From the IMG/VR virus record IMGVR_UViG_3300050821_001027, positions 1 to 35,215 of that record: a stretch of DNA of 35,215 bases; one strand, written 5' to 3'. Positions 15,012 to 32,275 of the stretch are shown in pieces. The notes under the pieces were generated by a model. That model did not search any database. It saw nothing but the letters and a program-made list of their open reading frames with translations, and was not told the DNA's origin. Every line of letters begins with the position of its first letter. The first letter of the stretch is position 1. This DNA comes from a virus. The translations under genes and the position numbers were made by a program.

Positions 15012-16103
15012 TCAGACCGCGTTGCCGTGCACCAGTCCGGTGTTGCCGTTCACGTCCGCACGAACCTGCGGGACCATGATGGCCATGACCTTGTAGTGCA
15101 TCTCGAGGCCACCCTCGGTCTGCCACTGGACCGTGGTGAAGTCCAGTCCGACGATTTCGCGGATCACGTCCGAGGACTGCTGGACGAGCAGCATCTGGTA
15201 GCCGGTCAGGTAATCCAGGGCACGAATGTCCAGGATCCCATCGATCTGCTTCAGACGCTCGCGGAGCGTCACGTCGCCCTTGGTCGTGCTGTAGTCATTG
15301 TCCAGGTACTGGTCCCAGGACGTTGACGCGTACAGGATCCACGGGCCGAAGTGGACAGCCGCCTGGCTGGCCTGCTTCATCGCGAGCACTTCGTTCAGCG
15401 TCGTCCTGGCCGTCCAGGAGGTGTGCGTCGGTGCCGTCATCGTGTACGTCAGGCGCTGCGGGAACGTGGTCGCCCCGTAGATCGTGCCGCCACCGAATGA
15501 GAAGTTGCCACCGGCCCAGTTGCCAAGCGCCAACTGTTCGGCGGTCTCGGCGACACGGCGGGCGGAAGCCTCTGCCATCGATGTGTCGAGCGGTGTTGAC
15601 GACTCACGGCTGACCATGATCTGCCTCGCTGAGAAGCTGAAGTCCGAATGGATCAGCGGCAGCGGGACATTGGTCAGTGTGTATTCCTGGCGGTCGCCCT
15701 TGCCCTTGTCGAGACCGTCCATGCTGACACCCGCCGTGCCCGGGTCGGTGCTCGACTCCGTGCTTAGGACGGTCTTGCTCAGGCCGTTCGGGATGGTGTA
15801 CTGCAGGCCACCGGCGCGAAGGTCGGCGACGAACCGCAGACGACCACGGGCTGCCTTCAGCACCGCGGTGTCAAGTTGGCGCCAGTCGTCGTACCGCAGG
15901 GTTGCCGAAGCGTTGCGAGCGAGAGCCGCGCGGGGCGTGATCTTGCCCGTCTTCGGGTCCTGGTGGTTGACGGTGATGTACGTGCGTCCGTCCCTGCCGA
16001 GGTAGGGGCGAAGCACACGCGGGTCGAAGCCCGAGTTCATCAGCCGCGTGGCCGTGTTCCCGAATGCCTGACCGTTGAGGATGTAATCCAGGTTCTTGAT
16101 CAT
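15012..16103 (-). CDS. Major capsid protein (HK97 fold, encapsulin-like)
   Basis: A 363-residue protein with an N-terminal domain of helices and strands, the segment LPLIHSDFSFSARQIMVSRE and then DTSMAEASARRVAETAEQLA, similar to the corresponding region of encapsulin/linocin-type HK97-fold shells (two-strand turn, then a long spine helix). Later WTARTTLNEVLAMKQA and QYLDNDYSTTKGDVTLRERL fit the A-domain. Lying between decoration and connector genes and after the protease/scaffold, it is the shell protein. The leader ends AATAGAATACAC with no Shine-Dalgarno. Unlike some capsid proteins it has no obvious long N-terminal delta domain, in keeping with a separate scaffold. Confidence 0.9.
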   Translation of the reverse strand: MIKNLDYILNGQAFGNTATRLMNSGFDPRVLRPYLGRDGRTYITVNHQDPKTGKITPRAALARNASATLRYDDWRQLDTAVLKAARGRLRFVADLRAGGLQYTIPNGLSKTVLSTESSTDPGTAGVSMDGLDKGKGDRQEYTLTNVPLPLIHSDFSFSARQIMVSRESSTPLDTSMAEASARRVAETAEQLALGNWAGGNFSFGGGTIYGATTFPQRLTYTMTAPTHTSWTARTTLNEVLAMKQASQAAVHFGPWILYASTSWDQYLDNDYSTTKGDVTLRERLKQIDGILDIRALDYLTGYQMLLVQQSSDVIREIVGLDFTTVQWQTEGGLEMHYKVMAIMVPQVRADVNGNTGLVHGNAV

Positions 16104-16670: not shown

Positions 16671-17315
16671 TCAGGCGGAGACTTTGGCCTTCTCGGTCTC
16701 AAAGTTCATCACCGGGGCGTCCAGGACTTCGCCGGCACCTTCCTCGCTGTTGCGAGCGGGAGCGGCTTCGCCCTGACCGTCGTAGCGCACGGCACCGAAC
16801 GAGCGGTCCGGCGTGGCGATGGCAGCGAACTTGCGGAGCTGCGGGAGCGTGAACGCGTCGAGTTCCTCCTGTGTGAACTCGTTGGCGTCATTGGCGAGGA
16901 TGTCCTCGCACAGGCGCTTGCGTTCGTTCGAGGTGATGTCCCGGGCGTTCCGGAGAATCTCCTGCACCTCCTCGGGCGCATCGGCGAGATACTCGTTGAA
17001 CGTGGCGCGCTTGGCCCGGTTGGTCTTGAACGCGTCGGGCGACGGGTCCTCACCGACACCGCGCTTGCCCTTGCCGCCGGCTCCCTTGCCACCCTTGCCG
17101 TTGTCCTCGCCGCCGCGGTTGTCCTCCTGGTTGTCGTCCTGCTCGTCGTCACCCCCGTCAGAGGGGTCGCCCGCGCCGGTCGTCTTTGCGTTCTTGGTCG
17201 CTTGATCGTGAAGCGTGCGGACACGCTTCTCGGGAAGTCCTTCAAGGAACTTCCGTTCGCCTTCCTCCCAGCCGTGATTCTTGATCAGGGCGTCAATGAT
17301 CTGTTTCTTATTCAT
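16671..17315 (-). CDS. Possible internal-start scaffold protein
   Basis: An in-frame ATG at 17315 (codon 571 of the protease gene) starts MNKKQIIDALIKNHGWEEGE and gives 214 residues comprising the linker and C-terminal helical scaffold. The sequence before it, CGGAAACAACCAAGAAC, matches the A/C-rich leaders seen before many real starts in this window. Nested scaffold starts inside protease genes are established in lambda (C/Nu3). The internal protein is inferred, since nothing in the sequence proves it is made. Confidence 0.5.
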   Translation of the reverse strand: MNKKQIIDALIKNHGWEEGERKFLEGLPEKRVRTLHDQATKNAKTTGAGDPSDGGDDEQDDNQEDNRGGEDNGKGGKGAGGKGKRGVGEDPSPDAFKTNRAKRATFNEYLADAPEEVQEILRNARDITSNERKRLCEDILANDANEFTQEELDAFTLPQLRKFAAIATPDRSFGAVRYDGQGEAAPARNSEEGAGEVLDAPVMNFETEKAKVSA

Positions 17316-19025
17316 GTTCTTGGTTGTTTCCGAAGACTCTTCCGAATCGTTGGTTGTGGCGGGTTCATACGTAGTGACGCGAACCACCGCCTCTGGCTCG
17401 CCCTCCAAAGTAACGGATTTGTTGTCCTTGGAATAGTCGTGCGAGTAAAGCTCGCCTTTGTAGGAATACACAAAGTAATCCTCGAAGACATCGCATACCC
17501 ACGGACTGCACATCATGGGATCACAGTCCAGTTTCTCGCAAAGTGCAGTGCTCAACGCTGAGCGCGTGTCGTCAAATGACAGCTCGTTGGTCGTGGCTGA
17601 AAGTTCCTTGGCGATGCCGTCGTGCATCTTGGCAGCGGTGTCGTGGTACGCTGTCATCAGGTTTCCCTTCCCGTCATTTGCCTTGCGGTGTGCAGACGAT
17701 GCGACGCGGTGGGCGATGGCAGCTCCCTTGTGCGCGACTGACGACTGTGACTTGCGCGTCATGGCGTCGTTGGTGCGTTCCGTTGCGGTCGCTGTGGCAG
17801 CATCACCCCCCGTCATGCTCGACGCGACCTCCCCGCTGCCCGTGGTAGACACCTGACCGGCGGCGCGCTTCTTGTCCTGGTTGTCGTCCGAGTCATCGTC
17901 CTGTGTGGGGTCGGGTTTGAAATTGGAATCGCCCGTCACATCGTTGGCGAGGACGCGAGCGCACATCTCACTGACGAACTGCTCAAGCTTCACCAGGTCA
18001 CCCTTGGAAATGTCCTGCTGGCCGAGCGCGTTGCCGATAAGTGCAGACACGAGAGTATTCTTGGTGGGCGTCTTGCTGGCCGCACCGGCTTCAACGGCCC
18101 ATGCTTTGTGGTCGGACGCTTTGGTGTCATGCCACTTTGAGTGGGCATCGTTGCCGTCCTTCTTGAAGGCGGCGGAAGCGGCCTTGTGCGCCTTGGCAGC
18201 ATCCTCATGCGCCTTCTGCTTCCCGCTAATCACCGCCCATGCACCCTTGCGAATGGCGGACGATGACGCCGTGGCAGCGTTGTTGTCCTTGCTGTCATCG
18301 TTGTTCTCCTCAGCGTCGGGTTTCCCCTTCGCATAGTTGAGCAGGATGTCCACCTGCTCACTGTTCAACGCGGCGCTGTTGCGGATGAACCCCGCACCGT
18401 CTTCGATGCTACACGCTCCCTTCTTGTCGGGCAGGAGAGCAAGGTGATCAGGACGATAGTTGCGTGCAATGGCGTTGTACGCCTCGCCACCGTATTCACC
18501 GGGCGTTTCCTCCTGGTCGGTGTAGACCCCGGTGGACAGCTCCATCATTTCCTGATTCTCAATGGCCTTCATGACCCGATCATCCACCTTGTTGGCGCGT
18601 TCCTCTTCAATCCAGGCTTCGGCCTTCAGCCTGCCCGTCTGATCAAAGGTGGTGTTCATAATCACACCGATCTTGTAATTCTCGGCGATCTCAGGGTCGC
18701 ACGCGCTGACACCCTCACCGTTCTTCTCGGGGTGGTACACGACCACGGGCTTCATGTTCCAAACCTGCGGGGTCTTGCCGAGCTCGTCAGCCGGGTAAAG
18801 CAACGGTCCCTGACTGCCCGCATGGACGCCCTCGGTGAGCATCACCATCGGTACCGCCGTGTATTCACGGCCCTCCATCGTCTCATGTCGTATGAGACGC
18901 GAGTTCGTCTTCAGGGCGAACCGGACTGACTGCCGCACGTTTTTGGTCAACGTCGGCGAACTGTCTTTGTTCGTGACAAGGGTAGACTGACGTGCGGGAC
19001 GCCGAGTCCGTTGTGATCGTTTCAT
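16671..19025 (-). CDS. Prohead protease with C-terminal scaffold
   Basis: A 784-residue protein. Residues 30-215 look like the DUF2213-type prohead protease: SRLIRHETMEGREYTAVPMV, a V-W-N-M-K-P-V-V-V-Y-H segment near 88-98, MELSTGVYTDQEE near 161-173 (possible Ser164) and NYRPDHLALLPDKKGACS near 189-206 (possible His194). The middle carries two His/Ala helical repeats (about 272-312 and 430-474) and acidic linkers. Residues 510-555 (VFEDYFVYSYKGELYSHDYS) form a small domain seen in related proteins, and 571-784 is scaffold-like, acidic and Gly-rich with helices. The catalytic residues are guesses from pattern. Protease plus scaffold before decoration and capsid genes is the standard order. 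Confidence 0.75.
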   Translation of the reverse strand: MKRSQRTRRPARQSTLVTNKDSSPTLTKNVRQSVRFALKTNSRLIRHETMEGREYTAVPMVMLTEGVHAGSQGPLLYPADELGKTPQVWNMKPVVVYHPEKNGEGVSACDPEIAENYKIGVIMNTTFDQTGRLKAEAWIEEERANKVDDRVMKAIENQEMMELSTGVYTDQEETPGEYGGEAYNAIARNYRPDHLALLPDKKGACSIEDGAGFIRNSAALNSEQVDILLNYAKGKPDAEENNDDSKDNNAATASSSAIRKGAWAVISGKQKAHEDAAKAHKAASAAFKKDGNDAHSKWHDTKASDHKAWAVEAGAASKTPTKNTLVSALIGNALGQQDISKGDLVKLEQFVSEMCARVLANDVTGDSNFKPDPTQDDDSDDNQDKKRAAGQVSTTGSGEVASSMTGGDAATATATERTNDAMTRKSQSSVAHKGAAIAHRVASSAHRKANDGKGNLMTAYHDTAAKMHDGIAKELSATTNELSFDDTRSALSTALCEKLDCDPMMCSPWVCDVFEDYFVYSYKGELYSHDYSKDNKSVTLEGEPEAVVRVTTYEPATTNDSEESSETTKNMNKKQIIDALIKNHGWEEGERKFLEGLPEKRVRTLHDQATKNAKTTGAGDPSDGGDDEQDDNQEDNRGGEDNGKGGKGAGGKGKRGVGEDPSPDAFKTNRAKRATFNEYLADAPEEVQEILRNARDITSNERKRLCEDILANDANEFTQEELDAFTLPQLRKFAAIATPDRSFGAVRYDGQGEAAPARNSEEGAGEVLDAPVMNFETEKAKVSA
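17604..17738 (-). repeat. His/Ala helical repeat, second copy in the protease gene
   Basis: Residues 430-474 of the protease (AHKGAAIAHRVASSAHRK, linker, then YHDTAAKMHDGIA) share the pattern H-x2-A-A-x2-A-H-x2-A, linker, (W/Y)-H-D-x2-A-x2-H with the copies at 18090-18212 and in the portal C-terminus (26302-26451). It looks like a helical hairpin. Confidence 0.55.
18090..18212 (-). repeat. His/Ala helical repeat, first copy in the protease gene
   Basis: Residues 272-312 of the protease (AHEDAAKAHKAASAAF, linker, then KWHDTKASDHKAWA) show the same spacing of His, Ala and W-H-D residues as the second copy and the portal copy. The three are related by pattern, not by close identity. Confidence 0.55.
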
Positions 19026-19150: not shown

Positions 19151-19336
19151 TCAACCCTGTTTCGCCACCAGGTGACTCTGCTCGGTATTATACCGTATCA
19201 CCTTTCCTGATTCAATGTGCAGCGTGATCTTACCAAACCACTCCTTGTTCCTGCACGCAATGAGCGTCTTTACGACGACCGCCACGTCCGGTGGCAATGC
19301 TGCTATCGCAGCGGCAATCTTTGCTTCGTCACTCAT
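19151..19336 (-). CDS. Small DUF2292-like protein
   Basis: A 61-residue protein from the ATG at 19336, which overlaps the preceding stop (ATGA). It begins MSDEAKIAAAIAALPPDVAV and ends with WFGKITLHIESGKVIRYNTE, resembling the small DUF2292-type fold where a helix precedes two strands with a D/SGK-V motif. The function is unknown. The longer in-frame start at 19462 is rejected because it would run back through the upstream gene. Confidence 0.5.
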   Translation of the reverse strand: MSDEAKIAAAIAALPPDVAVVVKTLIACRNKEWFGKITLHIESGKVIRYNTEQSHLVAKQG

Positions 19337-19824
19337 TTCTTTTCCTCCTCCTTCGCTGGTGCAGGTACCGCCACGGGCCTTCGCACGAATATGAAGTTCT
19401 TGTAGAGGACTTGCACGATGATCAGTTGCAACGCCATCTTGGGCTCGACCATCTGTTTCCAAAACTCGGTCACCTTCTCAGCTGTGTGGATGATCTCACC
19501 CTCAGTGGCGTTCATCGCAGCGACCTGTGCAAGGCCCATGACCTGCTGACCTAGCTTGTTGTGTGTCTCACATATGTCCAGCATGACCTCCTGCATGAAG
19601 TCACTGTCAATGGGGATTTCTTTTGCACCCTCGGGTAGCGCACCAGAAGTCTCGGCTTTGGGTTGTTGGACTTGTCCTTTGCGGTTTATTTCATCTATCC
19701 CCAGCCCTATCTGATCTTCAGTGGTTCGGAATGCTTCGCAAAGTTGACTCAACGTCATGCGCTTTCGGTTCATGCGGTCGAGTATCTTAAGTTCATCTGA
19801 GCTCCATTTTTTGGGTGTGTTCAT
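19333..19824 (-). CDS. Unknown protein with N-terminal helix-turn-helix-like segment
   Basis: A 163-residue protein. The first 50 residues (KKWSSDELKILDRMNRKRMT, then LSQLCEAFRTTEDQIGLGID) have the look of a small helix-turn-helix or SANT-like motif with W-S-x-D-E-L-K, as in phage gcrA/DNA-binding segments. Residues 70-140 are helical, and the C-terminus is Pro/Ala/Lys-rich. It could bind DNA or act as a small head-completion factor. No family is recognised with confidence. ATGA overlaps join it to both neighbours (19821-19824 and 19333-19336). Confidence 0.5.
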   Translation of the reverse strand: MNTPKKWSSDELKILDRMNRKRMTLSQLCEAFRTTEDQIGLGIDEINRKGQVQQPKAETSGALPEGAKEIPIDSDFMQEVMLDICETHNKLGQQVMGLAQVAAMNATEGEIIHTAEKVTEFWKQMVEPKMALQLIIVQVLYKNFIFVRRPVAVPAPAKEEEKK

Positions 19825-20057
19825 GTAAGGCGGGTGTTAAGGACGTATTTCTTGCCAAACGCTTTGATGCGTTCCTTTTGAAGGTCGGTAAAGTGAGTGC
19901 GAGACTTGTTCGACACAACGAACTCATTTTCCCAGTCAGTGAGTTGGTCGGTGAACGTGGTCATCTCAGCAATGACCTGCTGGCACTGAATGTCAGTTGG
20001 GAGAATGCCCTGAGTCGAATGCTGTTGTCCCGTTGGGACTGCAGTTCTAGGAAACAT
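19821..20057 (-). CDS. Small unknown protein
   Basis: A 78-residue protein starting MFPRTAVPTGQQHSTQGILP with a likely helical C-terminal half (ERIKAFGKKY). It overlaps the epimerase gene by 11 bases and the next gene by 4 (ATGA). No membrane segment, cysteine cluster or known motif is visible. Length, overlap pattern and composition support a real gene, but function is unknown. Confidence 0.5.
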   Translation of the reverse strand: MFPRTAVPTGQQHSTQGILPTDIQCQQVIAEMTTFTDQLTDWENEFVVSNKSRTHFTDLQKERIKAFGKKYVLNTRLT

Positions 20058-21036
20058 AAGCTTCAGGTATCAGACGTTGTGCTGCGATGTGCACCGCTTC
20101 ATCCGATGAATGAGAGGGTCGCCACCCGTATGAGTTCATCTTGGTTGCAGTGTAGTTCACGACTGGCACGTCACCGGGGAAACCATGGCGTCCACCTGTG
20201 TGATTGAGATAGATGGTTTCATCCATGGGAATCTTGCCAGCTTGCTGCATCTCGTAACACACGATATGAGCAACATCATCAACACTGGTCTGACCATCCG
20301 TTCCCAGGTTGTAAACGTCACACTGGCGGCGTTCGCCAGGCGGAATGTTGAAAGCAGTGATCATGCCCCAGATGCAGTCCTCAACTAAGAAGTACGGTTT
20401 GCGTCCCTGACCATCGCCCCAAACTTCTAGGATGGGAGTAGATCCCTTTGATCGGTTCTTCAGTTTTTGGATCAGGTCGTAAATGATGCCGTGACCCATC
20501 CCACCACCGACCACATTGCCAAACCGGAATATCCATGCGTGGATGTTGTAATGGTGTGCATACACACTGATGAACGCCTCAGCAGCGAGTTTGGATGCTG
20601 CGTACAGCGATATGGGAAGCATCGGTCCGTGTTTCTCGGATAGGATGGTGTTGGGTTCATCACCGTACGTTGCTGCGGTCGATGAGAACAGGAGCTCTTT
20701 GATGCTCAGGTCCTTCATTGCCTCGAGCACGTTCAGTGTTCCAATCGTGTTGTGCTTGAAGTCGAAATTGTTGTCCTGGCCCTGCATGATCGTATTAGCT
20801 GCCAGGTGCCACACAACATCGTGTCCTTTCATCGTGGTGACAAGGTGCATGGGGTCGAGTATGTCACCCTGGATGAATTGGTACCCCGGCGCCATGACAA
20901 ATCTTTCGATGTCCTTGAACTTGCCGGTCGAGAGGTTGTCAAAGCATGTGACGCGGTGGCTACGCTTGAGCAGTTCCTCAGTCAGTTTGACGCCTATGAA
21001 ACCGGCACCGCCGGTAAGGAATATGTTTCGGTTCAT
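20047..21036 (-). CDS. NAD-dependent sugar-nucleotide epimerase/dehydratase
   Basis: A 329-residue extended short-chain dehydrogenase from the ATG at 21036 (ATGA overlap with the methyltransferase stop). It has the NAD-binding GGAGFIG at 9-15, D59-type loop FIQGDILD, SSTAATYG at 118-125 and the catalytic YAASK (Tyr145, Lys149), with RFGNVVGGG further on. These are hallmarks of UDP-glucose 4-epimerase and related NDP-sugar 4-epimerases/dehydratases. It would act on nucleotide sugars in the cytoplasm. The exact sugar cannot be read from the sequence. Its neighbours (two methyltransferases and glycosyltransferases) argue for a modified-sugar pathway. Confidence 0.9.
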   Translation of the reverse strand: MNRNIFLTGGAGFIGVKLTEELLKRSHRVTCFDNLSTGKFKDIERFVMAPGYQFIQGDILDPMHLVTTMKGHDVVWHLAANTIMQGQDNNFDFKHNTIGTLNVLEAMKDLSIKELLFSSTAATYGDEPNTILSEKHGPMLPISLYAASKLAAEAFISVYAHHYNIHAWIFRFGNVVGGGMGHGIIYDLIQKLKNRSKGSTPILEVWGDGQGRKPYFLVEDCIWGMITAFNIPPGERRQCDVYNLGTDGQTSVDDVAHIVCYEMQQAGKIPMDETIYLNHTGGRHGFPGDVPVVNYTATKMNSYGWRPSHSSDEAVHIAAQRLIPEAYVS

Positions 21037-21488
21037 TTGATAGCTTCCACGCGGAGTGTTTCGATGTTGTCCTGCTCCATCCCTATGGCCTTCCAGTGAC
21101 CGTCGCATTCCTTTCGGTCACTCTCCTCAACGATGCGGAAGCCCGCTACGGTAAGTAGTTGTTTCAGGAGTGGGAAATTGAACACCATAAGGTGGCCGTG
21201 GTTGGTGATGATGTCCACAGCCTTGTCATGACTGAGCCTGCCAATGACAGGCACGCATATGCGAAGCACACCATCGGGCTTCAGGCACCGGTAAGCTTCC
21301 TGCATGAACCGAAACCCATCGGGACAGGTCACATGCTCAAGGCAATGCTCAATCAGGATCATCTGAGCAGCACCGTTGACGAACGGCAGACGCTTGGTGA
21401 TGTCCACATCCCTGTCGAAGTTGGACCAAGGGTATGGGAGCTTGTTGTCACCACATCCCAGGTTGATATGTGATATTCCAAAGCTCAT
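21033..21488 (-). CDS. Class I SAM-dependent methyltransferase
   Basis: A 151-residue protein starting MSFGISHINLGCGDNKLPYP. LGCGDN at 10-15 is the SAM-binding motif I, followed by an acidic residue after strand two (DVDITKRLPF) and IEHCLEHV near 46-53 plus CLKPDGVLRI, which is the pattern of small methyltransferases in glycan and lipopolysaccharide gene clusters. The start at 21488 overlaps the upstream stop (ATGA). The C-terminus is short compared with many members, so it may be a minimal domain. Substrate is unknown; a sugar hydroxyl is a reasonable guess from context. Confidence 0.85.
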   Translation of the reverse strand: MSFGISHINLGCGDNKLPYPWSNFDRDVDITKRLPFVNGAAQMILIEHCLEHVTCPDGFRFMQEAYRCLKPDGVLRICVPVIGRLSHDKAVDIITNHGHLMVFNFPLLKQLLTVAGFRIVEESDRKECDGHWKAIGMEQDNIETLRVEAIK

Positions 21489-22069
21489 CGGCGTGGTAGT
21501 TTGCGGAGACAGAACGACGGGATGTTTTCCCATTCGGTGACGGGTGGTGGGTTGTGCGGGGAGGTGACATATTCGAGCTCCCACCCGTACTTTACGCAGA
21601 ACTCCATGACCGCGAGCTGCACCCCGCAGTCAGGTGTGTTGTCCACGAAGTCATGGCCCATGATGAACCCACCCGGATACAGCAGGTTGCTCCACAGTTC
21701 CAAATCCTGCAGCGCATATCGGCGCAGGTGGTTGCCATCGATGTATGCCCAATGGATGCAGGGCTCCTTGAACGAACGGGCGACATCAGCTGACAAGCCG
21801 CGCTTCACAACAGCTCGGCCCGTTGCAATGTCAGGCGCAAGGTCAGTGATTACCCGGTTGTAAGCGTAGTTGTGGGACTTCTCACTGTTGAGCGGGTCGT
21901 GTCGGAACTCGTCGTATGTGGCCCACGGATCGACCATGTAAAGTCGCTTGATGGGATATTTCAGCAGTTGACCGGAAAAGTCGCCACAGAACACACCAAC
22001 CTCCACTCCCGTGGTGTTGGGCTCAATAACAGCTTTGATCAGGTCTTGCCGTGTCGGTAGTATTTTCAT
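21485..22069 (-). CDS. SAM-dependent methyltransferase (macrocin O-methyltransferase-like)
   Basis: A 194-residue protein from the ATG at 22069 (ATGA overlap). Motif I is GVEVGVFCG at 21-29, VDPW lies at 46-49, WAYIDGNH at 107-114 and GGFIMGHDF at 133-141. This order fits the Methyltransf_24/macrocin-type O-methyltransferases, where IDG-H and GH-D/DD-Y line the metal or substrate pocket. Here IDGNH has Asn where family members often have Asp. Probably methylates a sugar or related small molecule. The two methyltransferases in a row are related in fold only, not close copies. Confidence 0.8.
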   Translation of the reverse strand: MKILPTRQDLIKAVIEPNTTGVEVGVFCGDFSGQLLKYPIKRLYMVDPWATYDEFRHDPLNSEKSHNYAYNRVITDLAPDIATGRAVVKRGLSADVARSFKEPCIHWAYIDGNHLRRYALQDLELWSNLLYPGGFIMGHDFVDNTPDCGVQLAVMEFCVKYGWELEYVTSPHNPPPVTEWENIPSFCLRKLPRR

Positions 22070-22782
22070 CGTATGAGTTCGCGTTTCTTTGCTTCGTTGT
22101 ATTCGTCTAAAGTCCATTGCTGTGCAGCCCACACAGGAGCTTCCCATGGCAGGGGTCGGTTGCGGTCAAGGTTCCACGGTCCTGACACGCGCACCCTATC
22201 GCCAAGGCCTTTCTTCAGGGCGGTGAATTTCTGCTCACCGTATTGGCCCGGGAGGGTGGCATCCTCACCCAGGCTCAAGTACAGCGACACAAAACTGGGT
22301 ATGAAACTGTGGCGCACCAGGAAAAGGCTTTGCGACGATGTGAGCTTCTGGTGCGGTGGGTTGAGTGGACCCCCTATCGTCATAGTACCATTGCCCATTT
22401 CAGCATAGAGCTGATCGATGTACGGCCCGAACGCTAAACAGTCCTGCTCCTGGAAAACAAAGTCCAAACAGTCATTGTAAGCAATTAACGCTGCAGTGAG
22501 CATCGCTGACGCCCACCCAACGATTGGGTAGTTTGTCCTACCCTCATGCTTGTCCCTCAGTGAACCCAAGTCCCCCGAACAGGACACCACGAGATTGACA
22601 TTGCGGTGGAGATAACTTGGACCCATCCCACCCCCGGTAACCACCACCACCCGTTCTGCTCGGTGATGAACATTGCTACCTATGTTGGTTACCCAAGTTT
22701 CGCAGAACTGCTCTGGAGGGACAGGGGTCTTTGACTTGTGGCTGTATCCTGATCCAATGAGGAATCGTCGTGTGGTCGGCAT
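22066..22782 (-). CDS. Unknown protein of the glycan cassette, possible transferase
   Basis: A 238-residue protein starting MPTTRRFLIGSGYSHKSKTP with TWVTNIGSNV, RVVVVTGGGMGPSY, LRDKHEGRTNYPIVGWASA and DCLDFVFQEQDCLAFGPYI. The early beta strand RRFLIGSGY and VVVVTGGG segments suggest a Rossmann-like transferase, but I cannot assign a family. The last residues (AKKRELIR) run to the methyltransferase start. Its first 94 bases overlap the GT9 gene in another frame, and both frames look coding there. A later start (MGPSYLHRN, residue 54) would avoid the overlap. Confidence 0.6.
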   Translation of the reverse strand: MPTTRRFLIGSGYSHKSKTPVPPEQFCETWVTNIGSNVHHRAERVVVVTGGGMGPSYLHRNVNLVVSCSGDLGSLRDKHEGRTNYPIVGWASAMLTAALIAYNDCLDFVFQEQDCLAFGPYIDQLYAEMGNGTMTIGGPLNPPHQKLTSSQSLFLVRHSFIPSFVSLYLSLGEDATLPGQYGEQKFTALKKGLGDRVRVSGPWNLDRNRPLPWEAPVWAAQQWTLDEYNEAKKRELIR

Positions 22783-23633
22783 AGGTGTGATCGTATCGTC
22801 TTTAGGACCTCCTCCACGGAGATCGTGTCCATTGGGTTGTTGGGTGGGTTGCCCAGGTTGATTTTGTTCATGGAGTTCACCTTGTGGCGAAGTCCGGTAA
22901 AAGGGTGCTTGCTATCACTCACCACGGCACTTGTGTGGGGTGAGTTACAGAGCAAGCATTGAGGGGACGTTACCCCAAAGAGAACGACGCGCGGCGTCTT
23001 CATCGCACCGGCGACATGGCATGGGAAGCTGTCGATACCAACAAACAGCGACGCAGCACCGATCACAGCCCCAAGGTGCAGGAACGTCTGTGTCTTGCCA
23101 CGCAGATCGATTGAGCAGGGCAGTTTGTAGTTCATCTCCTGACCGACAATCACCACGTGGCGACCCTCGTTGATCAGGATTTGACACAATGCGCGCCAGC
23201 GTTCCTCCTTCCAATTGCGACCTTCCCACAAGCCAGGTCCCGGGGCAATCACAACATAGTCGGAGCAATGTATCTCGCGCTTCGCCCAGTCGTAGTGTCC
23301 GACGCGAGGAAACATCTCGAGGTCCCGAGCTATCTCACCGCGCTTGAACCCAGCCCCTTGCGCGAAACCATCGATCAGGTGCCACCCGGGCATCTGCTCG
23401 TAGTACACCAGGTTGAGGTTGTAGATCGCTGTGGGCTTGTTCGGTCCAATCACACCCAAGCCAGCTTCCACCACCCGGGGGTTGTTCTCGAACACCTCGG
23501 GGAACTTGGTTTGGAAGTAAATCTTGCAGCCGGGATTCCTCTCGTGGACTGCTTTGACAACAGCGCTGCACAGCAGCGTATCGCCACGCATGAGGTGACG
23601 GATCAGTACGAAGCTTTTGGGTGTTTCATCCAT
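22689..23633 (-). CDS. Family 9 glycosyltransferase (heptosyltransferase-like)
   Basis: The ATG at 23633 gives 314 residues. MDETPKSFVLIRHLMRGDTL has the GT9 opening VLIRHLMRGD. Residues 126-146 include APGPGLWEGRNWKEERW, the family substrate loop, and 187-220 LGAVIGAASLFVGIDSFPCH with AGAMKTPRVVLFG is the donor-binding signature of heptosyltransferases. It would transfer a sugar from a nucleotide donor to a glycan or protein. The C-terminus (VLKTIRSHLCRPHDDSS...) runs 94 bases into the next gene, longer than usual. The start overlaps the head morphogenesis gene by 8 bases, tying the cassette to the head operon. Confidence 0.85.
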   Translation of the reverse strand: MDETPKSFVLIRHLMRGDTLLCSAVVKAVHERNPGCKIYFQTKFPEVFENNPRVVEAGLGVIGPNKPTAIYNLNLVYYEQMPGWHLIDGFAQGAGFKRGEIARDLEMFPRVGHYDWAKREIHCSDYVVIAPGPGLWEGRNWKEERWRALCQILINEGRHVVIVGQEMNYKLPCSIDLRGKTQTFLHLGAVIGAASLFVGIDSFPCHVAGAMKTPRVVLFGVTSPQCLLCNSPHTSAVVSDSKHPFTGLRHKVNSMNKINLGNPPNNPMDTISVEEVLKTIRSHLCRPHDDSSLDQDTATSQRPLSLQSSSAKLG

Positions 23634-24573
23634 GGACTTTGATCTTGAGATTGTCTGTAAGGTCGTCCTCTTCATCAGCCTCCGGTGCTGAATCGTTTGA
23701 GCGGTCAATGCGTCCTTTCTTGTCCACAGGTGCAGGGATCCACGAGCAACGGCAGTTGGGATGGAGTGGGATCAGGCCCCGGGCCTCGTCCACAGTGTAT
23801 GGGCTGTTGTCTGCACCGTCCTGGCAGTCCTCACACACAGCATCATCATCCGCCGTAGCCCACTCAGCCATCATGCCAAGTGAATCGATGTCGAGCGCGT
23901 CAAACGCGTCAAGCTGCCCTTCTGCGTGCGCTCTTACGATTTCAGTACGCGCAATCATGTTCGCACGCGACCGCGTCAGGCCGTCAATCTGGTCGGTCAT
24001 GTCCTTGGCAATGGTGAGTGGTGCATCACCGTTTGCCATGCCATCGGCTAGGGTCCTGCCAAGTATCTGCTTATTATCAGCAGTAAACCCCTTCATTTCC
24101 TCAAACGTGCGTGTCGCTAAGGACTGAATCTTGTCCAGTGTTTCCGGTGAGGAAAAGGACTGTTTGACGAACGCAGCTTCCGATTTGGCGTAAAAGGTAG
24201 GGTCGGACACCATGCTATCTCGATGGGAGTCGAGGTAGGCTCGGACAAGACCCTGCTTGTACGCGCTGGTGATATATGCACCAACCCAAGGATTGTCAGG
24301 GTCGTTGCCAGCAATAAGCCCCAAAGCGCCGCTGTCCAACTGCTGTTGTAACCAATTGCTGAACGCTTGCTGCTTCTGGGCTGACGTAAGGAACTGGTAC
24401 TTGTTTGTGGTAAGTGCATTGGCTACGGGTGAACCCAAGCCGAACGAATCGTCCAACCCGACGAGCTTATGGACATGGCCTTTGAAAGCGTCCATCCTCG
24501 ACTTGATGTCCTGGGTGAAGGCATGGACAATCAGGGTCGTCCGCGTTGGATCAATTCGCATCAATCGGCTCAT
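23626..24573 (-). CDS. Head morphogenesis protein (SPP1 gp7 / Mu F-like)
   Basis: A 315-residue protein. About 185-270 holds the Phage_Mu_F hallmark: RTEIVRAHAEGQLDAF, a TADDDAVCEDCQDG segment with a CxxC pair, YTVDEARGLIPLHPNCRCSW with the Cys/His cluster. The N-terminal two-thirds is helical with LVGLDDSFGLGSPVANALTT. In this family the protein is a minor head component linked to the portal and ejected or retained with DNA. The ATG overlaps the previous stop (ATGA). The C-terminus is acidic with EADEEDDLT, and the stop is crossed by the GT9 gene. Confidence 0.9.
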   Translation of the reverse strand: MSRLMRIDPTRTTLIVHAFTQDIKSRMDAFKGHVHKLVGLDDSFGLGSPVANALTTNKYQFLTSAQKQQAFSNWLQQQLDSGALGLIAGNDPDNPWVGAYITSAYKQGLVRAYLDSHRDSMVSDPTFYAKSEAAFVKQSFSSPETLDKIQSLATRTFEEMKGFTADNKQILGRTLADGMANGDAPLTIAKDMTDQIDGLTRSRANMIARTEIVRAHAEGQLDAFDALDIDSLGMMAEWATADDDAVCEDCQDGADNSPYTVDEARGLIPLHPNCRCSWIPAPVDKKGRIDRSNDSAPEADEEDDLTDNLKIKVHG

Positions 24574-26115: not shown

Positions 26116-28224
26116 CTACTTTTTGACACCCTTACCCTTGGGAAGTTTGTCCTTGCCACCGCTACCACCTTTCTTGTTCCCCTTCTTGTAGAAGGCTTCG
26201 ATGCGGTCGACAGCTGCTTTTTCCTTGTCCTTCAACGCCGTGGACTGTTGTTCGCCTCCCTTTGTCGGTTTGCGTCCCGCTCCAGCACGAGCACCGCCAC
26301 GTTGCAGCTCAGTGATTGCTGTCAGGTGACGGTCAGCCTCCGCATCATGCCAGGCCGCTGCGTTCGGTTGGTCATCCTTGAGCAATTCGGATGCCTCGTT
26401 GTGAAGGGTTGCGGCAGCCTTGTGGTGTGCAATGTCCTTCATGTGGTCAGCGATAGTGCCCTGCTCAACAGCCTCATTCGACGCAAAGGCAGCCTCCTTG
26501 CGCTTCTGCATGATGCGAATGTTCGACACATGTTCCTCCTCATTCTTGACGGGCTTCTTACCACCACTGCCAGGCGTCGGGGATCCCTTAAGCGGTGGTG
26601 CTGCGGGAGGGGGCTTTACAGCGCTGGGAATCTTCGACTGTGTCTTACCGGGCTTGGGTTGCTGGTAGGGATTGCCCTGGTTGGGGAAGTTGTCAACTTG
26701 AGTGGCCTTTGTGCCACCCTTACCAGCGTTCGGCAGCGGTGACCCACCAGCCGGTGGCGGTTGACCATCAGCACCGGGAGCGTTCGGGTCAGGCTGCGGA
26801 GGATGCAGGATGTCAGCCTGTCCACCGTTGCCCATCGTGTTCAGGTACTTCTTCACGTTCGCCATGATGGCGTCCGCTTCCTCGTCCGTGAAGTTCAGGA
26901 ACATTGTCAGGTACTGCTTCGGTGGCACCAGCACATCGCAACCACCACTGACGTATGCACCCATCGCTTGCGACATCTGGAAGGCGATCTGCGCCTTTTC
27001 TGTGTCGCTGGTCGTGTGGGGGTCAGCCCAGTTCACGACCAACCCAGCATCCATGTCGTCAAGCGGGGACAGGATGCCCATGATGATCAGTCGCTCCACA
27101 AACGGCGTGATTACGTCCGGGGTAAGGTACTTGGTTTGGCGGTTCGTGACGCGTTCATTCCATGCTGAAGCGTCCTGGTCGGCGGCGAGCTTGGCCTCCT
27201 CAGTCCCGATGAACACGCGCCACGGGATCCCCAGTGAGCAAGCGATGGCTTTGATTGCCGTGGTGAAGTGCGCTGTGGGATCAGCGACCTGCAGCGCCAT
27301 TGATTTGGCGGTGACACCGACAAGTGCGAGGTAGCGCTGCAACCCTGATTGGTACTTCTCGAACTCCTCGCGCATCTCCTCACGGTTGAGGGTTGACACA
27401 GCCTGCAGCTCGGGATTGACCTCGAAGCTGATGCCAGGGAAGCCACCCTTGTAGAACATCTCACCGGCGCCTCCTAGCACCTTGCGAAGGTCGACGATGC
27501 GGTTGGCGACCGATGCCAACCTTGGCACGCCATACACCTCGCTGCTTTCCTTGTTATCAGCAAGGTGAATCACCCGCGTCCAGTGAACGGGTGTCGGGCT
27601 GGTCGGCATGGGTGCCACCGGTTGGATCACCTGCGTGTTGACACCGTACTGGATGAAATTGATGTTGTAGAGCAGCGGACGGCCGTACCTCGGGCTGGTA
27701 ATGTCCAACTCAAACTTGTTGATTGTCACCGCTGATTCATCGAACACACGGAGGTAAGCGAGCTTCTGCGCTCTGCTGCCCTTGGGGAAGGTGGTGGGCA
27801 TCGTCCCATCAAGCGGCACACCATCGACCGGTTCAATGAATTGCTTGCCGTCAGTGATACCGAGCAGTATCACACCAAACGTACCAATGCCCGACATGAC
27901 ATCCGCACGCTGCAGGATGCTATACAGTTTGAACTTCTTTTGCAGGGCGTCCCAGTCCTTCTCGAACTGAGTGTCTCCCTCGTCATCCGTCTCAAGGATT
28001 TCAGGGTCCTGCTTCCAGCACTCCTCGGGGAAAATCCTGACGACGCGCTTGGCGATGCCCTCGCGGTCGTACATCTGCCGAAGGTACGCAATGGTGAGTA
28101 TCTCCTCGTACCCGCACTCCTTATCGATGTCCTTGGTCTTGTCGATCAGGTTGCGAAGGAACTCACCACGCGCAAATATGGCGTTTTGAATGAGCTGATT
28201 GTCGGTGATCTTCGGCTTTTTCAT
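26116..28224 (-). CDS. Portal protein (DUF1073 type)
   Basis: A 702-residue protein. The N-terminus (GEFLRNLIDKTKDIDKECGY, then AYLRQMYDREGIAKRVVRIF and PEECW) has the DUF1073 portal pattern in which a helical pair is followed by R/K-I-V-x-x-x-P-E-x-x-W. Residues 380-470 (VERLIIMGILSPLDDMDAGL) complete the core. About 480-590 is Pro/Gly-rich linker (QPPPAGGSPLPNAGKGG); 592-641 is a His/Ala repeat (DHMKDIAHHKAAATLHNEAS and WHDAEADRHLTAI), and the tail carries GGARAGAGRKP and a Lys/Gly-rich end. The portal forms the ring through which DNA is packaged. The long C-terminus is an extension beyond the usual family length. TAATG overlaps the lysozyme-like stop. Confidence 0.85.
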   Translation of the reverse strand: MKKPKITDNQLIQNAIFARGEFLRNLIDKTKDIDKECGYEEILTIAYLRQMYDREGIAKRVVRIFPEECWKQDPEILETDDEGDTQFEKDWDALQKKFKLYSILQRADVMSGIGTFGVILLGITDGKQFIEPVDGVPLDGTMPTTFPKGSRAQKLAYLRVFDESAVTINKFELDITSPRYGRPLLYNINFIQYGVNTQVIQPVAPMPTSPTPVHWTRVIHLADNKESSEVYGVPRLASVANRIVDLRKVLGGAGEMFYKGGFPGISFEVNPELQAVSTLNREEMREEFEKYQSGLQRYLALVGVTAKSMALQVADPTAHFTTAIKAIACSLGIPWRVFIGTEEAKLAADQDASAWNERVTNRQTKYLTPDVITPFVERLIIMGILSPLDDMDAGLVVNWADPHTTSDTEKAQIAFQMSQAMGAYVSGGCDVLVPPKQYLTMFLNFTDEEADAIMANVKKYLNTMGNGGQADILHPPQPDPNAPGADGQPPPAGGSPLPNAGKGGTKATQVDNFPNQGNPYQQPKPGKTQSKIPSAVKPPPAAPPLKGSPTPGSGGKKPVKNEEEHVSNIRIMQKRKEAAFASNEAVEQGTIADHMKDIAHHKAAATLHNEASELLKDDQPNAAAWHDAEADRHLTAITELQRGGARAGAGRKPTKGGEQQSTALKDKEKAAVDRIEAFYKKGNKKGGSGGKDKLPKGKGVKK
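26302..26451 (-). repeat. His/Ala helical repeat in the portal C-terminus
   Basis: Portal residues 592-641 contain ADHMKDIAHHKAAATLH, a linker and AWHDAEADRHLTAI, the same H-x2-A-A-x2-x-H, linker, W-H-D-x2-A-x2-H pattern found twice in the prohead protease gene. Presence in two head proteins of the same operon suggests one module with a shared partner. Confidence 0.55.
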
Positions 28225-28613: not shown

Positions 28614-30167
28614 TCACGGCCCCCCTACGACGACGCCCCTGCCCGGAGCGAGTGCGGAGAGGGCGGTCTGGTAGTATTCGTAGGCGCCGATGGAGGGCGT
28701 GGGAGGACGGGGGCGGTTCGATAGATCAAGGGGGACAGAGGCTAGCGTTGCATTCGTTCCACCTGCACGGCATGGGGAAGAACTCGACGGAATATTCGCT
28801 GAGTTCAATAAAGGGTTCGATGTTGAAAAATTGGCGTCCTGACCCGTTTCAGACTGCCACGTTGCTATGGAAATCCCTCCTGCGCTGCCATTCGTAGAAT
28901 ACTTGAACGCATTGCCGAGCCCGCCATAACCAAGATTGTTCGTGCAGGTAAGGGACGTGGTTCCGCTGTAAAACACGGCCACCGCAGTATCGACGTTCTG
29001 GAACAGGTTGTTCTCGTCCTTGAGAGTTTGCGTACCTCCTACGGAGAAGGTGTCAGGAGAGAAGTTGATCCCGATCCCGGTTCCACCGCCGACGAACGTA
29101 TTGTTGGCTATCAGGTAGGTCGATACCAAGTTCCCTTCAGGGTTGAAGTAGATGAACCCGGTCGAAGGATTGTCGCCGCTCCCATTGGTCAGGAAAAGAT
29201 TGTTATAAGCCCGGGCATTAGTTACCCCGAATTGGATGAACAGTCCCGATGTTGATTTGTTCACTCCGCCGCCGTTCAAAGAATAGTTCGGCCCGATGAT
29301 ATTATTGTAATAATATACGGTGTCAGCAGTTGAACCGGCAGTCGCAAAAGTGAAAAATCCGTTATGATGGAATGTGTCGGCCCCGGAGGTATCATCCCAA
29401 TTTGTCCAATTAGAGAATCGGTTCCCATAAACGTACATTCCGACAATCGTATTGGCGGAGCTGCCCGACCCGCTGCAAACCCCGCACCAGTTGCAGTTGT
29501 ATGAGGTGCAATTAGAATAGGTGATGTTAGAGCATGCTCCGTTCGGTACGAAGTAAAACCCCCCCGTGGCGTCGGTCAGGGTGCAATTATTTACTGTGAT
29601 ACTGGAAATTCCAGAGCCGTTGTTGCCGAGGCAATAGACACAAACCCCGTAATTATTCTGGTCGGTGCCAACGGTCCTTACGTACATTGGGCTCACTGTC
29701 AGGTTCTCTACCGTGATATTGGAACAGTTTGTCAGGATGACACCAACGGAGTTAACCTGATTGGATAGACCTGTGCCGTTGGCGGTGCTCTGAATGAGTC
29801 CCTGCCTTCCTCCGGTTACATCGCCGTTTATCGTCACGTAGCTTCGACCGCTTAGAATTACTGCACCGCTGACTGCCCACGCCGGAACAGAGAAATTTGC
29901 ACCGGAATCGAAAAGGATAGTTATCGGGTTACCGCTTGACCCGCTCCCGGAAATCGTAAACGCGCTCGTGAAGGTGCCATCAAGGTGAACCGTATCCCCG
30001 GCGACGATACCGGCCCCACCCCACGTCTGAGAGCCCACCGCCCAAGCGTTTCCTACAGAAGTTCCATTCAAGGAACCTGCTCCAGACTGAGTGATATACC
30101 AATTAGAGGCGAGTGCTCGTGCGACGACGATAACCGTCACCACAACAAATCGAGATAGGAATTTCAT
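28614..30167 (-). CDS. Secreted-looking parallel beta-helix protein
   Basis: A 517-residue protein with a signal-like N-terminus (MKFLSRFVVVTVIVVARALA, possible cleavage after ALAS) and a body rich in NITVENLTV, ISSITVNNCTLTD and SNITYSNCTSYN coils, the ladder of right-handed parallel beta-helix proteins (pectate-lyase or tailspike fold). It ends with RPPTPSIGAYEY, a C-terminal cap common in such proteins. It may degrade or bind a glycan. A tailspike function is plausible, but the export signal is odd for a virion part. It starts one base after the preceding stop (TGAAATG). Confidence 0.7.
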   Translation of the reverse strand: MKFLSRFVVVTVIVVARALASNWYITQSGAGSLNGTSVGNAWAVGSQTWGGAGIVAGDTVHLDGTFTSAFTISGSGSSGNPITILFDSGANFSVPAWAVSGAVILSGRSYVTINGDVTGGRQGLIQSTANGTGLSNQVNSVGVILTNCSNITVENLTVSPMYVRTVGTDQNNYGVCVYCLGNNGSGISSITVNNCTLTDATGGFYFVPNGACSNITYSNCTSYNCNWCGVCSGSGSSANTIVGMYVYGNRFSNWTNWDDTSGADTFHHNGFFTFATAGSTADTVYYYNNIIGPNYSLNGGGVNKSTSGLFIQFGVTNARAYNNLFLTNGSGDNPSTGFIYFNPEGNLVSTYLIANNTFVGGGTGIGINFSPDTFSVGGTQTLKDENNLFQNVDTAVAVFYSGTTSLTCTNNLGYGGLGNAFKYSTNGSAGGISIATWQSETGQDANFSTSNPLLNSANIPSSSSPCRAGGTNATLASVPLDLSNRPRPPTPSIGAYEYYQTALSALAPGRGVVVGGP

Positions 30168-30168
30168 T

Positions 30169-30897
30169 TCAGTATTTGAAATCCGCTACTCTGGACGCCA
30201 AAACATTGGTTATAAATTGCGAGGTCCACGTAGGATTTGTCGCAGAGGCCGAACTAAGTATGTTATAAGACATTGAAAGTCCCTCGCTGGTAGCCGTCAC
30301 ATATGCGGCGGTGTCCGTTATCGTTAAGCTGGAATCAACGGAAATAGTGCCGCTGGAATTAGCACCGAAGGAAAATGCGCTTACGATTATACTATGAGCC
30401 TGAGAAGGCGTTATGGACCCCGGTTGGATGGTGGTGGCATTCGCGCTTCCCGCGCCGTTCTCATGATCGAAAGGAGAAGCCGCCACGTTGCTAAATGCCT
30501 CCACGCATATTGAGGCATATATGGAAGTGCCGTTATAGGTAAAGGTGTGACCTGATCCGACTGTGGCTCCATAGCAATAAAACAGTTGGCAGCTTACATT
30601 ATTGGAGGTGGAAGTGCTCTCTGTCAGAGCAGACCAAGTGTTAGATTTGGAATCGCTTATAGTGCCATTCGCGGTTATCCCGCTGTACCAGCTAACCGCA
30701 ACCACGAGCAGGTTTGCCCCTGTTGTGTTTATTGAGCTACTGGTAACCCCGTTAATGCCGCCCCCCGTGCCAGTATGAGTTATCAATGCCGGTGGGCCAC
30801 CCCCCGGCGTGTTCTGCCAAAATCCGATATTCGCGGGAGCCCCCTGCAAAGAGGCCAAAATCCCAATGGCGAGCAATCCTTTCAAAAAGGCTTTCAT
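30169..30897 (-). CDS. Signal-peptide-bearing beta-sandwich-like protein
   Basis: A 242-residue protein. MKAFLKGLLAIGILASLQGA is a signal-like segment. The rest is low in charge and rich in Ser, Thr, Gly and Asn: NLLVVAVSWYSGITANGTIS, TFTYNGTSIYASICVEAFSN, ending LASRVADFKY. Strand-rich sequence and the SNxWSALTES/IYASI pattern fit a jelly-roll fibre or adhesin domain. The function is unknown. Base composition looks AT-richer than the head genes. It joins its neighbours with the same stop/start string (TGAAATGAAA) at both ends. Confidence 0.6.
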   Translation of the reverse strand: MKAFLKGLLAIGILASLQGAPANIGFWQNTPGGGPPALITHTGTGGGINGVTSSSINTTGANLLVVAVSWYSGITANGTISDSKSNTWSALTESTSTSNNVSCQLFYCYGATVGSGHTFTYNGTSIYASICVEAFSNVAASPFDHENGAGSANATTIQPGSITPSQAHSIIVSAFSFGANSSGTISVDSSLTITDTAAYVTATSEGLSMSYNILSSASATNPTWTSQFITNVLASRVADFKY

Positions 30898-30898
30898 T

Positions 30899-32275
30899 TC
30901 AGGATACCCCAGGCCCGCTGATTATCCACGAAGTGGTTCCAACCTTGAGAAGCGTCGCTACGCCGCCTGCCGCCAGTGAACGCGATCCTGTGGAACCAGT
31001 CCCGCTCCCGGCGTACCACGTGAGCGTGTCGGACGTGATGGCGATTGTGACGGTGTTGATCTGATTAACGACTGTGATGACGGTGCCAATCGGCCATGCC
31101 ACGTTGGCATTGGAGTCTATTGTGAACGTCCGGGCGTTGTTGTCAGCCGTGGGGTGAAGGATATGCTTTCCCATGTCGCCCAAGACCATGGTGTAGGCGG
31201 CGCTTTGGCTGTTCTGAGGCATCCCAATGTATCCAGCTAAAACGGTCGAGCTACCTGACGTTGGCGTGGCAATCGTTGCGTTGGCCGCAAGGCTTCCGGC
31301 TGAACCAGTGGTATTCTGATTGAACGTCGGAAAAGTGTTCGTTCCGCTTGTAAGATTCTTGTTGGTTAGGGTGAGGGTGGCCGCAGCAAGGGCGTCCACG
31401 TAAGCGTCCGTCGCCAATTTCGTGTCGTTAGAGGCCGCTGATTGGGTAGTGGCCGTCATGCCATTCGACAACGCGCCAGCAACCACGGAAGCTGCCGGGA
31501 GTCCCGTTGCGTTGGTCAACGTCCCGCTCGACGGCGTTCCTAGCGCACCGTTGTACGTCACGAAGGCACCGGGAGAGCCCACGTTGACTCCGAGAGCGTT
31601 GGCGACTCCGGTGCCGACGTTTAACGAAGCCGGGCTGATGAGCGCGTTGCTCGCCGCCGCCCCGATCTGCACCGTCCCGTCCCCCGCCGCTCCGGTCTTT
31701 AGGACGGGGGTCACGAACGAGGTGGTGCCCGTTGGAGCGGTAGCCGTCAGCGCCCCGCCCGTCCCAAGGTAGTAAACGGTGTTGGCCGCCAATCCCGTTA
31801 TCGTGCTCTCGTAGCCAGAGGTCGTCATCGTGAACGAATTGGTGCCCGTGACCGTGACCACGCCCGCGACCGTCGCCGTCCCCTGAGCGCTGTTGTCTGC
31901 CGCCGAGAAGTGCGGAGAGCCCACCGTCCCCGTCCCGTCGTTATACACGCACTCCCCGAGCGTGAAGCCGTTGGAGGTTTGGGCAACCGTCTGAACGTTC
32001 GACGCCACGCTGAGCGTGATCGCGGGAGTCGTCGTCTGGTTCGCGACCGTCCCGGATACGCCGTTGGCGGAGACCACGGAGACCGAGGTGACGGTGCCGG
32101 AGCCTCCACTAGGAAGTCTGCGGGGACTGACATACACATTACCCGCTGTCTTTGCAGCGACCTGAGCTACTGTAGCCTCAGCAGGTGGTGGTATGCCCTG
32201 AGCATTTAGCTTGGGCGCGAAAAAAGCGCCGATTATCGCAGCGGCACCAAATAACACCATTCGTAGTGATTTCAT
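30899..32275 (-). CDS. Tail-fibre-like protein with N-terminal signal-like segment
   Basis: A 458-residue protein. The N-terminus MKSLRMVLFGAAAIIGAFFA ends KLNAQG, a signal-peptide form. Then repeats such as GTVTSVSVVSANGVSGTVAN and a C-terminal SQSAAYTMVLGDMGKHILHP, NARTFTIDSNANVAWPIGTV and GGVATLLKVGTTSWIISGPG follow, which is a common C-terminal pattern of phage tail fibre and related virion proteins. No enzyme motif is visible. It opens the three-gene fibre-like group. The leader contains a perfect CACCTAGGTG palindrome at 32283-32292, 8 to 17 bases before the ATG. Confidence 0.7.
   Translation of the reverse strand: MKSLRMVLFGAAAIIGAFFAPKLNAQGIPPPAEATVAQVAAKTAGNVYVSPRRLPSGGSGTVTSVSVVSANGVSGTVANQTTTPAITLSVASNVQTVAQTSNGFTLGECVYNDGTGTVGSPHFSAADNSAQGTATVAGVVTVTGTNSFTMTTSGYESTITGLAANTVYYLGTGGALTATAPTGTTSFVTPVLKTGAAGDGTVQIGAAASNALISPASLNVGTGVANALGVNVGSPGAFVTYNGALGTPSSGTLTNATGLPAASVVAGALSNGMTATTQSAASNDTKLATDAYVDALAAATLTLTNKNLTSGTNTFPTFNQNTTGSAGSLAANATIATPTSGSSTVLAGYIGMPQNSQSAAYTMVLGDMGKHILHPTADNNARTFTIDSNANVAWPIGTVITVVNQINTVTIAITSDTLTWYAGSGTGSTGSRSLAAGGVATLLKVGTTSWIISGPGVS

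Follow-up and report, generated by a model that had tools for sequence, protein, structure and literature searches.

Why should a phage keep genes for sugar chemistry among those that build its head? The question is raised by a linear virus record of 35,215 bases (IMG/VR IMGVR_UViG_3300050821_001027, analysed over its whole length and called the window here), in which five genes occupy positions 20047-23633 of the minus strand without gaps. They encode a glycosyltransferase (GT) of family GT9, an orphan protein assigned below to the GT-A fold, two S-adenosylmethionine (SAM)-dependent methyltransferases (Methyltransf_24 and Methyltransf_11) and a nucleoside diphosphate (NDP)-sugar epimerase. 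Upstream lies a MuF-type head morphogenesis gene, and downstream lie two small genes followed by those for the protease and the major capsid protein (MCP). A first-pass annotation, made from the sequence of the window, had placed a sugar and methylation cassette at this spot, and its coordinates proved exact. As judged by sequence comparison, the five genes form a real, selected and polymorphic glycan cassette, and the gap between the head morphogenesis and protease genes appears to be an exchange site whose glycan gene sets differ between related phages.

Exchange can be followed in two lineages, L025 and L027, which were recovered from separate metagenomes. Upstream, the two share 3.4 kb that contain the complete portal gene and match at 100% identity; towards the end of the head morphogenesis gene identity begins to drop, lies at 37-80% over most of the cassette (the exceptions being the methyltransferase at 95% and a 99% patch in the small gene that follows) and is back to 99-100% once inside the protease gene. 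Neither allele is broken, and most of the differences between them are synonymous, with non-synonymous (pN) and synonymous (pS) values of 0.060 and 0.737 for the GT-A enzyme and of 0.146 and 0.747 for GT9. The same observations rule out decay or misassembly as the source of the difference, and the pair thus represents a recent swap of working alleles, which are under purifying selection. L071 and L072 form a second pair with such borders, their flanks being 95-100% identical around an unrelated interval of other small genes. Decayed or scattered genes in relatives, which would have spoken against the cassette as first annotated, were not what we found: frames are intact, pN/pS is low and motifs are conserved. 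Chance open reading frames (ORFs) can likewise be discarded, as four further phage lineages have homologues in the corresponding position.

How widespread is this arrangement? A census gathered through the MCP and the head morphogenesis protein, the latter's gene serving as the upstream anchor, gave 82 head-gene clusters, delimited by a threshold of 95% nucleotide identity in the head morphogenesis gene (L025 and L027 are two clusters by this measure). Co-occurrence with capsid genes in relatives, proposed earlier as a check, is seen in that glycan genes lie in the same interval in 19 of the 82 clusters, and in 14 of the 59 whose full interval is visible. A core of GT9, GT-A and Methyltransf_11 is found there in five lineages (the window, L008, L025, L027 and L098/L099), whose MCPs are 47-82% identical and whose core proteins diverge broadly in parallel with the head morphogenesis protein. 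At least nine clusters carry a second set, marked by GT11 and usually accompanied by GT2, Methyltransf_24, FkbM and a GT2-like gene, and others differ again. Glycan genes are enriched in the interval relative to the rest of the same loci. Since the cassette hidden Markov models (HMMs) were partly seeded from interval genes, Pfam tallies are the fairer test: 126 interval proteins gave Methyltransf_24 (9), Epimerase (5), GT9 (5), Glyco_tranf_2_2 (5), GT11 (4), GT2 (4), FkbM (4), GT25 (2) and GT34 (2), against zero glycosyltransferases, zero Methyltransf_24 and one epimerase for 126 control proteins, among the 25 commonest families listed (of 51 and 44), so that single glycosyltransferase matches among the controls could be hidden. 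The variable interval of relatives often ends at the small helix-turn-helix-like gene, and an HMM of this gene from five lineages has matches between cassette and protease in L025, L064, L066, L081, L098, L148 and L168.

Are the five genes indeed a glycan pathway? Profile searches matched four of the proteins to Pfam; the fifth, first described as an "unknown possible transferase", had zero matches by sequence in Pfam, PHROGs, PDB sequences or 50,697 deposited phage records. A search of IMG/VR for relatives led to an alignment of 28 sequences in which D107, E112 and D114 are invariant, and an acidic DxD-like motif with a putative metal-binding role, E112-x-D114, is kept in all 28. A Foldseek search of PDB with the AlphaFold model, a confident one (pLDDT 84.4, pTM 0.86), returned 279 matches at E <= 0.001, the best being the GT8 glycogenin (3.5e-7), and the top 50 VIA-align entries were all GT-A-fold glycosyltransferases at Z 13.3-14.4. 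Among them were the GT domain of A064R from PBCV-1 (2p73; Z 14.2, 3.6 A over 189 residues), BoGT6a (4ayl; Z 14.1) and glycogenin (Z 13.7). If the model is right, these tied matches fix the fold of the orphan, not its sugar, and its relatives make up a new, predicted family of GT-A-fold glycosyltransferases. Members in unrelated phages (L033-L057) mostly adjoin Methyltransf_11 where the flank permits, often with GT32, Methyltransf_24, GT47 or other methyltransferases added. A search for hosts through gene homologues found one orphan relative, on an Ignavibacteriae contig from a metagenome-assembled genome (CAIUMP010000062.1, 210 kb; L058), where it lies within a dense run of glycosyltransferase, methyltransferase and sugar-nucleotide genes; the contig may belong to a bacterium or to a jumbo phage.

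The remaining enzymes are more familiar. GT9 scores 55 bits against PF01075 (curated cut-off 22), is 46-57% identical to the GT9 proteins found at the same place in the four other lineages, and has 1psw as its sole match by sequence in PDB. Methyltransf_11 is 53-61% identical across four lineages, and Methyltransf_24 has a homologue (44%) in the L008 cassette. The closest solved relative of the epimerase, whose sequence keeps the TGGAGFIG and YxxxK motifs, is GalE-1 (3ehe, 4.1e-57). In L008, a lineage represented by several contigs of which one spans 70 kb, GT9 and GT-A form one protein of 569 amino acids (aa), 45% identical to the orphan, and GT32 (PF04488) and Methyltransf_11 form another of 364 aa; such GT-GT and GT-methyltransferase fusions tie the parts of the cassette to glycan synthesis. 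With the predicted fold of the orphan and the conserved position, they bear out the earlier proposal of a glycan cassette attached to the head operon. PHROGs (phrog_2675) labels proteins of the window's Methyltransf_24 type "DNA methyltransferase"; the genomic company of this gene suggests a sugar O-methyltransferase, and the label may mislead annotation. Within the L098 cassette lies a radical SAM/SPASM protein (L098:9992-10846), which hints at an unusual sugar or peptide modification.

The layout of the window (Table 1) is equally compact. GT9 starts within the head morphogenesis gene, with the 8-base overlap first reported. The ATGA overlaps also reported hold at three junctions (orphan/Methyltransf_24, Methyltransf_24/Methyltransf_11 and Methyltransf_11/epimerase, each of 4 bases) but not between GT9 and the orphan, which overlap by 94 bases, the end of the GT9 frame apparently continuing into the orphan. 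The epimerase stop overlaps the next small gene by 11 bases. The region has about as many promoter- and terminator-like sites as its shuffled versions would lead one to expect, or only slightly more. Because of the gapless layout, we infer that the cassette is co-transcribed with the head genes.

Table 1. Head genes and glycan cassette of the window, in order of decreasing coordinates
Feature	Position	Strand	Matches and remarks
Portal protein	26116..28224	-	PF06381 7.1e-26; phrog_146 6.3e-62
Head morphogenesis protein (MuF / SPP1 gp7-like)	23626..24573	-	PF04233 4.6e-12; phrog_758 3.5e-44; upstream border of exchange site
GT9 (heptosyltransferase-like) glycosyltransferase, 314 aa	22689..23633	-	PF01075 9.9e-15
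Orphan, predicted GT-A-fold glycosyltransferase, 238 aa	22066..22782	-	No match in Pfam or PHROGs; fold from model
SAM methyltransferase, Methyltransf_24	21485..22069 (start 22069)	-	PF13578 1.2e-13
Small SAM methyltransferase, Methyltransf_11	21033..21488 (start 21488)	-	PF08241 1e-6
NDP-sugar epimerase/dehydratase, extended SDR	20047..21036 (start 21036)	-	PF01370 3.2e-39
Small gene, cassette-to-protease stretch	19821..20057	-	46% homologue directly after L008 cassette
Small helix-turn-helix-like gene	19333..19824	-	Weak PF09012, below cut-off
DUF2213 head protease, scaffold-like C-terminal part	16671..19025	-	PF09979 2.2e-8; phrog_12864, phrog_4708; downstream border
Major capsid protein	15012..16103	-	PF19774 2.2e-24; phrog_771

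Other genes are found at this site as well. Proteins encoded in or beside the head morphogenesis gene at L065:4371-5105, L017:4111-6093 and L020:2955-6689 look ADP-ribosyltransferase- or kinase-like by eye, which suggests further polymorphic cargo at the same site. In L013 (3729-6266) and L079 (2819-5329) the head morphogenesis gene itself has an apparent long intein-like insert in the region of a conserved Cys motif, ending in ...VVHNC in L013.

What, then, is glycosylated? We favour, with a probability of about 0.55, a soluble pathway that glycosylates a virion protein during head assembly with a short, O-methylated glycan. The epimerase would supply or alter a nucleotide sugar, GT9, acting in the cytoplasm, would attach the first sugar to Ser/Thr residues of a virion protein, the GT-A enzyme would add a second one, and the two methyltransferases would O-methylate the chain. 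The acceptor would most likely be a concurrently synthesised protein of the capsid, tail tube or fibres, and the sugar coat of the particle would differ between close relatives. Cytoplasmic glycosylation of a virion protein is preferred because of the head-operon position, the lack of multi-pass membrane proteins, and the nearly complete record from which L099 derives (67.8 kb, with the portal gene divided between its two ends), in which the cassette profiles match the cassette only and no hydroxymethylase of the thymidylate synthase type was found. In a hydropathy scan none of the 122 interval ORFs of cassette-bearing phages had two or more candidate membrane segments, and there are therefore no signs of a flippase- or Gtr-type surface system, unlike gtrABC serotype conversion with its multi-pass flippase and membrane-bound glycosyltransferases. 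For the first step a model exists in the TibC/AAH autotransporter heptosyltransferases, TibC being a member of GT9. TibC heptosylates protein serines directly (PMC4358343), although these enzymes are bacterial and act on autotransporters, whereas PDB matches of the window GT9 are limited to 1psw. Three consecutive genes of the window at 28614-32275 (minus strand; 458, 242 and 517 aa), lying just upstream of those for the transglycosylase and the portal, encode proteins with signal-peptide-like N-termini and Ser/Thr/Gly/Asn-rich bodies that have no match in Pfam or PHROGs; parts of two of them have relatives in L025, though located elsewhere, following the tail-side head genes. They are possibly fibre or secreted proteins and, as such, candidate glycan acceptors.

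Several observations weigh against virion glycosylation. Most relatives, including the cultured ones examined, lack glycan genes in the interval: zero are annotated there in Brevundimonas phage MaInes (whose annotated MCP is 36% identical to that of the window), Klebsiella phage KpV2811 and the haloviruses Hardycor1 and HJTV-4. The word "locked" used in the first-pass annotation is apt for the position, which is fixed, but not for the content, which is exchanged. No Ser/Thr-rich tail at the MCP termini tracks the cassette. Between the window and L008 the epimerases share only 37% identity and are differently placed, so that the sugar may differ between them or the genes may have been gained independently. 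Finally, the GT-A/Methyltransf_11 pair of the unrelated phages lies near DnaG primase or terminase genes, outside the head operon; the orphan-family gene set thus occurs in more than one genomic context, and its link to head genes is not universal.

The main rival is that the cassette alters a host surface glycan, lipopolysaccharide (LPS) or capsule, at a late stage of infection, which would keep progeny from sticking to debris or to cells already infected; variation would then follow that of the host glycans. GT9 enzymes are classically LPS heptosyltransferases, and both the PF01075 and the 1psw match of the window protein fit such a role, as does the presence of the GT-A family outside head operons. 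The variable, GT-rich host-recognition region of pelagimyophages has been interpreted as modifying the host O-chain (PMC7029224), though it lies with the tail fibres, and in myophages. In contrast, flippases, polyprenol-phosphate sugar transferases and all other multi-pass membrane proteins are missing from the 19 cassette-bearing intervals, and the cassettes are strongly associated with the head operon rather than with tail-fibre or lysogeny genes. We consider host surface modification less likely than virion glycosylation. Virion glycosylation or late host remodelling had both been offered at first; the former is favoured here, but the choice is not settled, given a GT-A family that also stands beside non-head genes.

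Less probable still is that the cassette is mobile "moron" cargo that makes a glycan with no functional link to the head, and that has landed repeatedly between the head morphogenesis and protease genes since insertion is tolerated there. The interval does vary without glycan genes (as in L071/L072) and harbours other cargo, such as cytidylyltransferase-like and hydrolase-like genes, yet its Pfam tally is dominated by glycan genes and the core has been kept at the site across all five lineages despite the divergence of their MCPs. That the glycosyltransferases modify phage DNA bases, for which there are precedents (PMC12619734; PMC12838424), is very improbable, as PF00303 is absent from the window and the records of four relatives (one near complete, most fragments; the thymidylate synthase-type route was the only one searched) and the association in this lineage is with head rather than replication genes.

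Known systems resemble virion glycosylation by this cassette in part. Cluster O mycobacteriophages, as described in PMC11600133 (citing Freeman 2023), have three tandem glycosyltransferases beside an O-methyltransferase, with capsid and tail tube proteins as the reported targets. Tandem phage glycosyltransferases adjoining a methyltransferase are thus common to this cluster O/Corndog type and to the window; by that description the gene sets differ, with GT9, a new predicted GT-A enzyme and an epimerase here, as does the location, here in the interval from head morphogenesis gene to protease gene that is exchanged between close relatives. A064R of PBCV-1 is a GT-GT-methyltransferase that takes part in assembling the methylated glycan carried by the major capsid protein (PMC7019647). 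It is likewise a GT-A enzyme joined in function (here, in relatives, in sequence) with a second glycosyltransferase and a SAM methyltransferase, and a methylated glycan is predicted here too, but it comes from a eukaryotic virus and is one three-domain protein. The orphan had no match to it at E <= 1 in a profile search of PDB sequences, and the likeness in fold is non-specific, many GT-A enzymes scoring equally (Z 13-14).

Could the interval be a phage "glycotype" locus? Whole glycan pathways would then be swapped by homologous recombination between near-identical phages, whose methylated sugar coats would differ, and a recogniser of the virion surface would maintain the diversity by selection. 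We put this forward tentatively, and with less confidence than virion glycosylation itself.

Virion glycosylation in phages is known mainly from actinobacterial phages, and the phage group that has this cassette is known from metagenomes only. The surprising parts are the predicted new GT-A family, which Pfam, PHROGs and the deposited phages do not see and to which a function class can now be assigned on the strength of its model, and an exchange site within the head operon. Taken together, the results suggest that a sugar coat, most likely that of the phage particles themselves, is varied among related phages. If this is true, virion glycosylation would extend to a separate, uncultured phage group, within the head operon and as a polymorphic, swapped trait, and the purpose of phage sugar coats would become testable by comparing two phages distinguished by little more than the cassette.

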